The notes below the pieces were generated by a model, which made no database searches, was not told the DNA's origin, and saw nothing but the letters and a program-made list of their open reading frames with translations. A program made the translations under genes and the position numbers. A DNA stretch of 64,000 nt, from contig BGKB01000232.1 in NCBI GenBank assembly GCA_003116975.1, positions 1 through 64,000 of the forward strand. Reading direction: 5' to 3'. The DNA comes from Aurantiochytrium sp. KH105. Lineage: Eukaryota; Sar; Bigyra; Thraustochytrida; Thraustochytriidae. Below, in pieces: positions 45,498 to 50,052 of this stretch; the stretch's first letter is position 1, and each line of letters starts with the position of its first letter.

Positions 45498-46232
45498 CTT
45501 CGCCCCTGTGTCGCTGTCGCTTTACGTCGCGCTTTACGGAGCAAACTAGCTGGCAATCTCGCGCTTTGCGGCCCGGCCTATGGCGCCAGAAAGCCTGGCT
45601 CTGGGCGCTGGCCGTTCCGCCGCGCGGCTGGCCCCAGCGCCGCGTGCGCGCCCGCTCGCAGGCCCGCGCAGTCCGGCAGCCTCGGCGGGTGGGCGCGGCG
45701 CTCGATGCGGGTCTGCGAGTCCGCCAGGGCCTGCCTGCCTGCCTGCCTGCCTGCCATCCATGGCGCGCCATCTGCCGCATCCCGCGCCTTCTCCGCCTCC
45801 GCGCGCGGCCGATCCGCGGCGGATCGCGGCCCCGCGCGCGCCGCCGGGACCGCCGCGGCGCGCCGCGCGATCACCCGTCGCCCGCGGCGCCGGAGGCCGC
45901 GGCGGCNCACCCGTCGCCCGCGGCGCCGGAGGCCGCGGCGGCGCAGAGGTCGGGCGCGCGCAAGCGGGCTTGCGCGCGGCTCGCGGCATGGCGCGCTCGG
46001 CATGGGCGCGAGCTACTACTAGCAGAACCGCATCGAGGCCGAGGAGCACGCGCCCGAGGCCCTGACGCAGAGCGAGGCCGCGGCCGCCCCGGAGAGCAGA
46101 CGCGCGCAGAGCCGGGCCCGGGGAGGAGGAGGAGGAGACCGCCGTCGCGACGAAGAGCGGCGCGAGCAGGCCGCGGAATCGTGGGGATCTCGACGACGGA
46201 CGCTGGCTTCGCGTCACGGACGCGCGCGCGAC
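45498..46232. other. Divergent region between P450 and ankyrin-SAM genes with a one-base gap
   Basis: Extremely GC-rich, with a CTGC run (about 45728-45755). A single N at 45907 is flanked by two identical 35-bp copies. No gene is supported. Confidence 0.6.
45872..45942. repeat. Identical 35-bp copies flanking a single N (probable assembly join)
   Basis: Bases 45872-45906 and 45908-45942 are identical, separated only by N at 45907. This is what remains when two overlapping contig ends are joined without collapsing the overlap, so the duplication is probably artificial. Confidence 0.8.
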
Positions 46233-47744
46233 ATGAGGCTCCTCTATGAGAGCGTGCAGCGCGGCGACGTGGAGGCCGTGGTGGAGGCGGTGACGGCGAA
46301 GCCGGAGAAGCTGGACAAGGTGCTTACGCAGGCGAATGACACGCCTCTGACGTGGGCGTTGAACCCGAACAGCGGCATGCATCCGGAGATCGCGCGGGTG
46401 CTCATTGAGCGCGGTGCCAATGTTGACGCGCAGCAGAGCGATGGATGGACGCCGCTCATGCTCGCGTGCAGATATTCACAGCCCGAGGTTGCCAAAATGC
46501 TGGTCGAGCGCGGGGCCAAGCTTGATTTGCAAAAATGCGACGGCTGGACCGCGCTCATGATCGCCTGCAGCGAGGGAGAGACGGAGATTGCGACTCTGCT
46601 CGTGCAGCGCGGCGCCAAGCTCGACGTGCAAAACAACCAGGGATGGACCGCCCTCATGTTCGCGTGCGAGCTTGCACAGCCCAAGGTCGCGCAAGATATC
46701 ATTCGCCGTGGGGCTCAGCTCGATACCCAGCAAAAGCAAGGCTGGACCGCGCTCATGTTCGCCGCTCGCCATGATCAGCCCGAGACGGTACGCATGCTCC
46801 TGGAGCGTGGCGCCAAGGTCGATATCGAGGACCAGGACGGCGTTACAGCACTCATGCATGCTTGCCGCAAGCCGACGTCGACTGCTCATACGTGCCAAGG
46901 ACTTCTCGCTGCTGTCAAGGCGTGCTGGGCCGCAGGCGCTAGTCTTGAGAGCCCGTCGAGCAAAGCGAACGATGTCGCAGAGGCTGAAACATCCACGACG
47001 ACGGTCGAGGAAAGCGGCATCGACGCAGGTCGTGGCCCTGCCGCGGAAGATCTTAGTGATGACGACGATGACGACGTTCCTGAACTTATTGGTGGGAGCT
47101 CGCGTCGGCTCCGCGCACAGAACAGCGTCGCAGAAGACACTCCTGCTGCTGTTGACGCGCCTGACAGCGACAAGGCCAGCGAGCCGCGCGACGAAGAGAT
47201 TTCGGGCACGGCTGAGACAGTGGGTGACGAGGAACCTCTGCCGACGGCTGTCGACGTCAATGAGCCAACATCGACCAAGTCTTCAACGCAGAGTGCTTTG
47301 AAGATTGCTCAGGAAGAGCACAGAGCTGATGCGGTTGAGTTTCTTACGTTTGTGTCAAAATCAGACGTGGCATCTCTTTTGCTGGACGAGCTCAAAATGC
47401 CGCGCGAGGTCGTTGTGTCCTTTTTCGACAACGAAGTCCGAAGCGCCGAAGACTGCGCAATTCTCACCGAAGCGGATCTCCAACACATGGGCGTTGACAC
47501 GGTGATGAAGCGTCGCAAGATTCTCCGGCACTTTCAGCCCTCCAAGGCGCCAGAGACGCAAGAACAAGAAACAACAAAGGCGCCTGTCACGCCTGCTGAG
47601 ACCAAAGAGAAGGAAACAGAGCCTGTGGCAAGAGCCGCCTCGCCCGATGCTGCCAAAGCAGGCTTTGCGGATCGTCTGAGCCAGGCGCAGCAGCAACAGC
47701 AAAAACAACGCCCGGCTGACGACCCGCAATGCTGTGTGCAGTAA
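46233..47744 (+). CDS. Ankyrin-repeat and SAM-domain protein with C-terminal CaaX-like box
   Basis: The 503-residue protein starts at ATG 46233. About six ankyrin repeats (residues 5-215) are very regular, with the recurring module DGWTxLMxAC...ARVLIERGA. An acidic, disordered middle (about 220-370, DLSDDDDDDVPELIG) follows, then a SAM domain at about 377-432 (LLLDELKMPREVVVSFFDNEV...LTEADLQHMGVDTVMKRRKILRHF). The tail is Gln-rich and ends CCVQ, which fits a CaaX prenylation signal (Gln at the last position favours farnesyl transfer), so membrane attachment is possible. Such proteins are scaffolds; no partner can be named. It is convergent with the selenoprotein gene, whose SECIS lies in the shared 3' region. 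Confidence 0.88.
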   Translation: MRLLYESVQRGDVEAVVEAVTAKPEKLDKVLTQANDTPLTWALNPNSGMHPEIARVLIERGANVDAQQSDGWTPLMLACRYSQPEVAKMLVERGAKLDLQKCDGWTALMIACSEGETEIATLLVQRGAKLDVQNNQGWTALMFACELAQPKVAQDIIRRGAQLDTQQKQGWTALMFAARHDQPETVRMLLERGAKVDIEDQDGVTALMHACRKPTSTAHTCQGLLAAVKACWAAGASLESPSSKANDVAEAETSTTTVEESGIDAGRGPAAEDLSDDDDDDVPELIGGSSRRLRAQNSVAEDTPAAVDAPDSDKASEPRDEEISGTAETVGDEEPLPTAVDVNEPTSTKSSTQSALKIAQEEHRADAVEFLTFVSKSDVASLLLDELKMPREVVVSFFDNEVRSAEDCAILTEADLQHMGVDTVMKRRKILRHFQPSKAPETQEQETTKAPVTPAETKEKETEPVARAASPDAAKAGFADRLSQAQQQQQKQRPADDPQCCVQ

Positions 47745-47985
47745 GCGTCGATTTGCAGTGGGAAACAGGGAGAGACCATCCAAGGATAACATAATAATCA
47801 CAATCAATCTAACAAACAAACATGCATTTCAACATACATACAGAGATGAGACTTTATACTTTTACCTCTCTTCCTAACCAATCTATCCCTTGTCACGTCT
47901 CGGCGGGTCGACGCGCAATCCCCACAAACCACCAGTTCATGTTTACGATCGCACGCGTCATGTACGAAACTTTTTCCAAAGAGAT
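47745..47985. other. Shared 3' region of ankyrin-SAM and selenoprotein genes
   Basis: Only 241 bp separate the two stops. It contains the SECIS hairpin on the minus strand (47892-47970). The rest is A/T-rich on the side of the ankyrin-SAM gene (47785-47830), fitting a 3' UTR or polyadenylation region. Confidence 0.6.
47892..47970 (-). promoter_or_regulatory. SECIS element in the selenoprotein 3' UTR
   Basis: Read on the minus strand, 15 nt after the TAG stop, the hairpin has all core SECIS parts. The 5' quartet half is ATGA (47961-47958). A ten-pair helix joins GCGTGCGATC (47956-47947) and GATTGCGCGT (47920-47911), all Watson-Crick or G-U. The 3' quartet half is CGAC (47910-47907), matching NGAN. 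Unpaired AAA (47944-47942) opens the apical loop, 13 nt after the quartet. A lower helix of about seven positions with one mismatch is possible between GTTTCGT (47970-47964) and ACGTGAC (47898-47892). This is the eukaryotic signal that recodes UGA as selenocysteine. Confidence 0.8.
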
Positions 47986-48369
47986 CTACTGTCGGTCCTT
48001 GGCACTAGTCATGGCTGACTCTTGCTTGGACATGAGATAGGCGTCAAAGACTTGAGCGAGCTCGCCCGGTTGCGGCAAGCGTCCTTGCGTCGCGAGAGAC
48101 CACAATCGAAGTCCCTTGGTGACGCCGTCAGCTTCCATTACATATACATCAAAGGCGTAGCCCCCACTTGCTTCCATGCCAGCCTCTTGCTTTTTGCCTC
48201 GCACACGAACGTTAGGCCACGCAAGCTGCTTTGCGGATTCCTCGACGAGCTCGTCGCGCGCGTCCGCAAAATCGTGGTACGTGACACCAGCGCCGCATCA
48301 TTTGCACGGCCAGTATACGTGCACGAGGGCCTCCTCGCGCGGCGATGGCGATGCTGCTTCTTCTACCAT
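47986..48369 (-). CDS. Selenoprotein of the Rdx (SelW/SelH-like) thioredoxin-fold family; TGA at 48300-48298 read as Sec
   Basis: From ATG 48369 (context GACGCCATGG) the frame runs to TAG at 47988-47986 with one internal TGA, giving 127 residues with Sec at 24. The site reads HVYWPCKUCGAG. Downstream are a helix (DARDELVEESAKQL), then GGYAFDVYV, LRLWSLATQGRLPQPGELAQVFDAYL, which resemble the GSFEVTL, ELWTG and FPEPQEVVEEL parts of selenoprotein H. The coding pattern is equally good on both sides of the TGA, no AG acceptor allows an intron to remove it, and a SECIS follows the stop. The motif Cys-x-Sec-Cys differs from the usual Cys-x-x-Sec. Likely a small redox protein; localisation unknown. 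Earlier in-frame stops block a longer N-terminus. Confidence 0.82.
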
Positions 48370-48852
48370 GGCGTCCACGAGATGGTTGTATGTCCGGCTG
48401 AGCGTTGCGGAATTGTTGATGACTCGAGTCGTTGTCCCTGTTTTTTGCCGATGTCTTTCATCCGGCTTTCGCGATTCTTCTCAAACTCACGGGTCGCTCG
48501 CTCGCTCGCTCGCTCATCGACGGTCGAACGCGAACTGTCAAGGAGAAGAGAAGCCCTCGTCACGTCGACGCGACAGCCAGCACCTATGCTTTTTAACGCC
48601 CCGGACGACCGTCTACGGCCCTGGTTTGGGGGAAAGCTCGAAGTCTGGCGTTCCCATGTCGATGGAAAGCTTTGAGAACGGAGATGTGTGCACCCGCTGA
48701 AGTGAAAATGACGAGTGAAGGAGGTCACTGCGAGCACGGGGTCCGTGGCGCGTGCGCCAATCGTCAGCAAACGCGCGAGGTCGGAGAGCGAGGGAAGCGG
48801 CCCGACTGCGACTACTCAAGGAGACGAGCGAGCGGCGCGCCAGCTGAGAGAC
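48370..48852. promoter_or_regulatory. Divergent 5' region of selenoprotein and TTL-like genes
   Basis: It spans 483 bp. A GAGC run (48494-48515) in sense orientation for the selenoprotein gene lies 125 nt before its ATG. A potential splice donor (CCC|GTGAGT, minus strand, near 48488) lies just downstream of that run and could mark a 5'-UTR intron, but no acceptor was assigned. Confidence 0.45.
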
Positions 48853-50052
48853 ATGCCGGTGCTGTGGACGTGCTCGCCGAGCTGGGAGTGGGCGTTCCGG
48901 GCGGCCGCCGGCGGCGGTGATGAGAATGTGGGCGGCTCTGAAAACAACGCCGAAGTCGCGTGGCGCGCGTGGGAAAAGGTGGACAAGCTCACGGCACTGC
49001 CCTCGTACGATCGCAGCCAGGGCAACGCGTTGCTACGCATCGAGGCTGTCGATGATGAAAGCTGTCAAAGTGCTGAGGAGCGGAAGACCCCGAGCGTGAC
49101 GTGGTTTGGAGCCGGATGCTTTGACAGTCTCGGGGACAAGGACATGCTCTGGATGGTGCTCGAAAGGCTCGGTCTTGAACGCTTCGTGCCTGCGACCAGC
49201 GTGCTCGTATGGGATGTGGACGAAGTCGATCAAGTCCTTTTGCCAGCGACAGCCGATGATCTCGTCGTCCTCAAGCCACCTCTTGGGTGCCATGGTGAGG
49301 GCATTGTCTTTTTTGAAACGGGGCCTAGCAAGGCACGCGAGACGCAAGAGCGCATCCTGGCCATTATAAGCGAAGACGCTAAACGAGCGCGTGCAGAACG
49401 CGGTTTCCTGGAGCATCTTTTGCAGCGCAAGGGCCGGTTGCCGGGATGGGTCCTGCAAGCACATATCCGAAGCATGCTCTTGCAAGGGGACCGCAAGTTT
49501 CACTTGCGTGCTTATGTGCTTGCGGACGATGCTAAACAAAGTCTCTTTCGGTATGCCACCATGGAAGCACGTGTTGCCGAAATGGCATACAACGCTACGG
49601 ACTGCAACGATCGCGCATCGCATATTACCAACGGGGCTGGCGGGGATCGCATTCAGCGCGTGCTCGTGCGTGAGCTTCCCGAGCTGGCGGCGATGCAAGA
49701 TCGACTCGATAGCTTTGTGGACGAGCTTTTGGCTGAGCCAGGATTCCGCGACGCTGTCTTTAATCACGCACACCGCCCACCCGAACGAAAGGCCCGTTTG
49801 GGGGGACGCTTTGCGATTGGTGCTCTAGACCTTATGATCGACGACACGGGCCGTCCTTGGATTCTCGAAGTCAACGCACGAAGTCCTGGGTGTGCCCCTG
49901 AAGGAACGGGTTCGGCAGCGTTTCAGACCCACATGTGTGAGCTTGCTGGCGAACTCTTGCGCTTCGGCGCTGCATCTTTGAATGATGAGCCTGTGGAGGT
50001 GCGGGAAGATGGTTTCCAGCCAGTCGCACAGGTTTGTGAGAGTGACAAGTAG
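48853..50052 (+). CDS. Tubulin-tyrosine-ligase-like ATP-grasp protein
   Basis: The 399-residue protein starts at ATG 48853 (MPVLWTCSPSWEWAF); the frame upstream lacks an ATG. TTL-family features are VVLKPPLGCHGEGIVFF (ATP-binding loop), GWVLQAHIRSMLLQGDRKFHLRAYVL (the KFxLRxYVL block), the metal-binding end GALDLMIDDTGRPWILEVNARSPG and a short C-terminal helix region (FQTHMCELAGELLRFG). Family members ligate Tyr, Glu or Gly to tubulin or other proteins. The beginning (PVLWTCSPSWEWAF...GNALLRIEAVDDE) is not typical of animal TTLLs, and protists carry several divergent forms, so the acceptor is uncertain. It is convergent with the MFS gene. Confidence 0.82.
   Translation: MPVLWTCSPSWEWAFRAAAGGGDENVGGSENNAEVAWRAWEKVDKLTALPSYDRSQGNALLRIEAVDDESCQSAEERKTPSVTWFGAGCFDSLGDKDMLWMVLERLGLERFVPATSVLVWDVDEVDQVLLPATADDLVVLKPPLGCHGEGIVFFETGPSKARETQERILAIISEDAKRARAERGFLEHLLQRKGRLPGWVLQAHIRSMLLQGDRKFHLRAYVLADDAKQSLFRYATMEARVAEMAYNATDCNDRASHITNGAGGDRIQRVLVRELPELAAMQDRLDSFVDELLAEPGFRDAVFNHAHRPPERKARLGGRFAIGALDLMIDDTGRPWILEVNARSPGCAPEGTGSAAFQTHMCELAGELLRFGAASLNDEPVEVREDGFQPVAQVCESDK

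Follow-up and report, generated by a model that had tools for sequence, protein, structure and literature searches.

SELENOH is selenoprotein H, known as BthD in Drosophila, and CxxC is the usual thioredoxin-type pair. In the available part of the literature, SELENOH is defined by a Cys-x-x-Sec motif together with an N-terminal RKRK nuclear signal, and the Rdx selenoproteins are characterised as CxxU (PMC10650576). A UxxU version of SELENOW has been reported in a source likewise available in part (PMC7539508). The accessible text on SELENOF describes a CGU motif, in which Cys and Sec are one residue apart, and this CxU pair is redox-active, its potential being about -256 mV (PMC9304195). In the literature searched, accessible in part, no description of a CxUC selenoprotein site was found; among the literature matches listed, also seen in part, there was no selenoproteome of a thraustochytrid or of the stramenopile genera searched.

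The locus was analysed within a window of 64,000 nucleotides, which is the whole stretch of DNA presented above, and within the genome of 76 Mb in 367 contigs. The predicted product carries the motif C-K-U-C and is called the CKUC protein here. It resembles SELENOH in size, motif order, F-x-V strand, LW and P-x-P-x-E helix, the sequence used for comparison being presumed to be that of human SELENOH. The two differ in the redox motif, which is CxxU in SELENOH and CxUC in the CKUC protein, in the RKRK signal, which the CKUC protein lacks, and in the Rdx profile score, which is 39.5 bits for the presumed SELENOH sequence against 12.6 bits. Assignment to SELENOH itself was rejected on the position of Sec, C-K-U-C not being Cys-x-x-Sec, and on the N-terminus without RKRK. 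With SELENOW and SELENOT of the same genome the CKUC protein shares a Sec in an Rdx-type loop and a similarly built SECIS element; these two have the canonical CxxU (CGGU and CTSU), however, and their pairwise similarity to the CKUC protein is weak. The single residue between Cys and Sec is as in SELENOF, whereas a third Cys adjoining Sec is not described for SELENOF in the part of its literature available, and SELENOF is not a detected relative. The coordinates of the features are summarized in Table 1.

Table 1. Features of the CKUC gene, in positions of the window
Feature	Position	Strand	Basis
Coding sequence, ATG to TAG, 127 residues with predicted Sec at 24	48369..47986	minus	translation, codon score, second copy
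TGA read as selenocysteine (predicted), residue 24, C22-K-U24-C25	48298-48300	minus	translation; kept in second copy
Final stop TAG	47986-47988	minus	
SECIS element, form-2 type	47970-47897	minus	minimum-energy fold, descriptor scan, second-copy fold
SECIS core 5' side, ATGAC	47957..47961	minus	coordinates
Unpaired GTAAA with conserved AA of SECIS	47942..47946	minus	minimum-energy fold, coordinates
SECIS core 3' side, CGAC	47907..47910	minus	coordinates

The in-frame TGA and the two gene copies

The minus-strand frame was translated into a conceptual product of 127 residues including U, which begins with MVEEAASPSPREEALV and ends in RQ, with a single in-frame TGA at codon 24, where the product reads WPCKUCGAG. 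The preliminary description had reported this codon, and it was borne out by the translation and by its retention in a second gene copy. The codon-usage score, trained on 3044 codons from six other genes or frames of the same genome, was +30.9 bits for the 103 codons downstream of the TGA, the best of the six frames; the next-best frame there, an antisense frame with one stop, reached +9.1 bits. The maximum among 2000 base shuffles was 6.1. Upstream of the TGA the score was a weak +2.2 bits for 23 codons, again the best of six frames, the other five being below zero. Strong coding character had been claimed earlier for both sides; the frame ranks first on both, and the upstream signal is weak. 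The in-frame UGA lies inside a coding frame according to the translation, the codon score and the second copy.

The second copy is located on another contig and shows 98% protein identity with the TGA kept. The copies differ at 5 coding bases, all 3' of the TGA, giving K47R, Q48K and three silent changes. By region, the differences were 16 in the 300 bases before the ATG, 0 in the 69 bases from ATG to TGA, 5 in the 312 bases after the TGA and 5 in the next 120. Paired copies were seen for most genes searched, the exceptions being one Sep15/SelM match and some single weak matches, and because most searched genes occur in such pairs the two copies are probably haplotypes. A sequencing error for TGC (which would give CKCC) or a TGA arising by chance would fit with the codon after the TGA being TGC, but the identical TGA in two diverged copies, together with the SECIS element, leaves this explanation a practically negligible chance.

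When the second copy (L002/L032, G000 C234) was aligned with positions 47190-49190 of the window, the match began near 48690, continued across the 3' portion of the ankyrin gene and lasted until the aligned stretch ended. Towards the TTL/ATP-grasp-like gene the second copy does not align to the window, and unrelated sequence and a 438-base run of N are present instead. Elsewhere in the window, at 45546-46382, long frames overlap in several readings with PPRPPAPRATG-type peptide repeats around an unknown base; this stretch is more suggestive of a GC-rich repeat than of coding sequence.

The removal of the TGA by an intron was also considered. The preliminary description had stated that no splice acceptor could remove it, which was too strong, as 41 frame-keeping GT..AG pairs span the TGA on paper; introns also exist in the genome, for example the one inferred in SelW. 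Against splicing, the 20 pairs listed among the 41 would all excise coding-scoring stretches, all 41 remove at least about residues 22-40 (the redox loop with the beginning of the next helix region), and the SECIS element would be left without explanation. An intron at this site is therefore exceedingly unlikely.

SECIS element and selenocysteine machinery

A hairpin of SECIS type, absent from the preliminary description, lies shortly beyond the TAG stop. In its minimum-energy fold the 3'UTR forms stem I (GUUUCG/CGAGAC), an internal loop of AUGAC opposite CGAC, a 10-bp helix II, the unpaired GUAAA opposite GG and then an 8-bp apical helix. The 3' stretch of the second copy gives a like fold, and the sole substitution inside the element changes a U-G pair to C-G. 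The folding energy is ordinary, the region having a z of -1.02 (second copy -1.24; stretch lacking the 5' arm of stem I -0.11), and the values for the GPx, SelT and SelW elements were -3.8, -3.2 and -2.3 respectively. The SelT element (L010, L011) starts with GUGAC, not AUGAC, and has a helix II of 13 bp. In Ostreococcus, the available part of the report describes SECIS elements with an unpaired G ahead of the core (PMC2375036).

A strict descriptor (ATGA, N, 10-13 perfect pairs, AA within 3 bases, NGAN), drawn up from general SECIS rules after the element had been spotted by eye, gave a single site over the two strands of the window (128 kb), which is the element of Table 1. It matched both GPx copies and did not match the SelT or SelW elements. 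The 23 other loci scanned, 165 kb counting both strands, had no site; many of them are copy pairs, and one shares 4 kb with the window. Shuffled windows gave 2 sites in 300 windows, and shuffles of the 400-base 3'UTR gave a strict match in 2 of 20,000, rising to 21 of 20,000 with one mismatch allowed. A relaxed descriptor, accepting GTGA and two mismatches, found exactly one site per 3' stretch in all eight copies of four selenoprotein genes including the CKUC gene; as background, it matched at 6 further places in the window and at 3 in other loci totalling 167 kb. The Rfam model SECIS_1 did not match the element of the CKUC gene and was likewise blind to those of GPx and SelT. A SECIS 3' of the frame is hence indicated by the scans and folds, though Rfam SECIS_1 is silent.

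These data bear on the reading of the TGA as a true stop, in which case the open frame would span 23 codons and what follows it would be a remnant, either decayed or started downstream. TGA is an ordinary stop at the end of the window's P450 frame, and no orthologue of the CKUC protein was found in the viral, prokaryote and phage collections. Termination at codon 24 is nevertheless very unlikely, given the SECIS-type element just past the later stop, the downstream coding signal with low divergence between the copies, and the TGA retained in both.

The preliminary description had proposed a genome search for, among others, tRNA-Sec, SepSecS and EFsec, and these three were present, with SelD in addition, so that the genome contains Sec machinery. 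The tRNA-Sec with anticodon TCA (UCA) occurs in two copies. SepSecS is also present in two copies, scoring 407.7 bits over positions 2-387 of the 389-position model (PF05889), and this model passes its cut-off with Bacillus subtilis, used as a control, as well. One of the two eEFSec copies was scanned and showed the eukaryote-specific domains PF21208 and PF21131, and the bacterial selB model matched the eEFSec region with a score under its cut-off. Two copies of SelD were above the cut-off. A KTI12-family match could be either PSTK or Kti12, the model being non-specific and also matching 7 of 14 control genomes. The genome also encodes three standard selenoproteins, each with a SECIS element, namely GPx (ATTUG), SelT (CTSU) and SelW (CGGU), the CGGU of SelW being interrupted by an inferred intron.

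In SelW (L012, L013) the intron appears to follow the UGA codon and one further base, which would divide the redox loop between exons. The domain scan of L034 placed SelD behind a Pyr_redox_2 (NADH-dehydrogenase-like) domain at L034:1-2562 (G000 C170; partner L033 on C78), and the tRNA-Sec shares both SelD contigs at about 63-66 kb from SelD. Fusion of SelD with a Pyr_redox_2-type domain has already been described, according to the available part of the source (PMC4561486).

The SECIS element, the Sec machinery and the TGA in both copies give strong support to the claimed selenoprotein with a Cys-x-Sec-Cys site. Because the TGA is kept, a SECIS lies 3' of the stop, and the genome holds Sec machinery and standard selenoproteins, the product of the gene is very probably a Sec-containing protein some 127 residues long.

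Possible relation to the Rdx family

The relation to the Rdx family was analysed by profile, pairwise and structural comparisons. The Pfam Rdx model (PF10262) gave 12.6 bits for the CKUC protein and 12.4 bits for the second copy, below the gathering cut-off of 22.6. The best Pfam match was the unrelated PGM_PMM_III at 15.8 bits, above the Rdx score yet below its own cut-off, and the sole NCBIfam match was Arch_GlmM with an E of 0.047. The AlphaFold model was poor (pLDDT 46.5, pTM 0.33) with a predicted order of strand-helix-strand-strand-helix. The structural matches of this low-pLDDT model were weak, with selenoprotein W-related PDB chains at ranks 12 and 27, and peroxiredoxins, thioredoxins and unrelated domains were intermixed at similar Z. 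Searches of viral contigs, prokaryote genomes and phages, which are collections without eukaryotes, turned up no relatives.

The pairwise similarity was best to the presumed SELENOH sequence, with an E of 4e-4 for the single pair; in separate shuffle tests this similarity was equalled by 2 local and 1 global shuffles of 500 each. The similarity to SelW of the genome was equalled by 127 local and 21 global shuffles of 500 each, that to SelT by 20 and 98, and that to the Rdx protein of locus L008 by 205 and 416. Against a small Rdx profile, hhalign gave an E of 0.0034 with a probability of 9.6% and a score of 21.9, the best of 100 shuffles reaching 20.2; against SELENOH alone the probability was 1.4%. 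The alignments placed C22 on the Cys and C25 on the Sec of SELENOH, so that the CxxC/CxxU spacing after the first strand is present and Sec stands one residue early.

The low Pfam and hhalign values, the poor model and the weak or absent similarity to the three other proteins of the genome would suit a selenoprotein that is an unrelated small Sec protein instead of an Rdx member. That such a protein is encoded is considered unlikely, as the similarity to SELENOH is rarely equalled by shuffling, the hhalign score exceeds all 100 shuffles, and selenoprotein W-related chains occur among the weak structural matches. The Rdx layout closest to SelH, put forward in the preliminary description, thus stood in the best pairwise match to the presumed SELENOH sequence and fell short in the Rdx score, the hhalign probability and the model quality. 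From its sequence the protein is perhaps Rdx-like and nearest to selenoprotein H, a placement weakly to moderately supported. Taken jointly, it is likely that this is a nuclear eukaryotic selenoprotein gene with a thioredoxin-like (Rdx-type, SELENOH-like) oxidoreductase as product.

Proposed mechanism and meaning

From the UGA, the SECIS element and the machinery, we infer insertion of Sec at codon 24. The SECIS would recruit SBP2 and eEFSec with Sec-tRNA, and the ribosomes would then continue to the full-length protein. Less certainly, this protein may act as a thioredoxin-like oxidoreductase of Rdx type, in which the C22-K-U24-C25 loop would alternate between a reduced form and one with a selenenylsulfide or disulfide. 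There are two candidate mechanisms because the loop contains both CxU and CxxC spacings. In the slightly favoured one, C22 and U24 would form a selenenylsulfide, as in the CxU of SELENOF, which C25 would resolve; in the other, C22 and C25 would form a disulfide, as in CxxC proteins, and U24 would serve as the first or an extra nucleophile.

The CKUC gene is a very probable selenoprotein gene overlooked by both the PF10262 genome search and the Rfam SECIS model. It is tentatively suggested, at slightly less than an even chance, that its product is the first known member of a SELENOH-like Rdx subfamily with Sec shifted by one position, an intact CxxC with an adjoining Sec forming a three-chalcogen C-x-U-C site. 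If true, a natural CxUC site would mean that Sec can be displaced by one residue with both cysteines of the CxxC preserved, and that the roles of Sec and Cys are separable within one protein.
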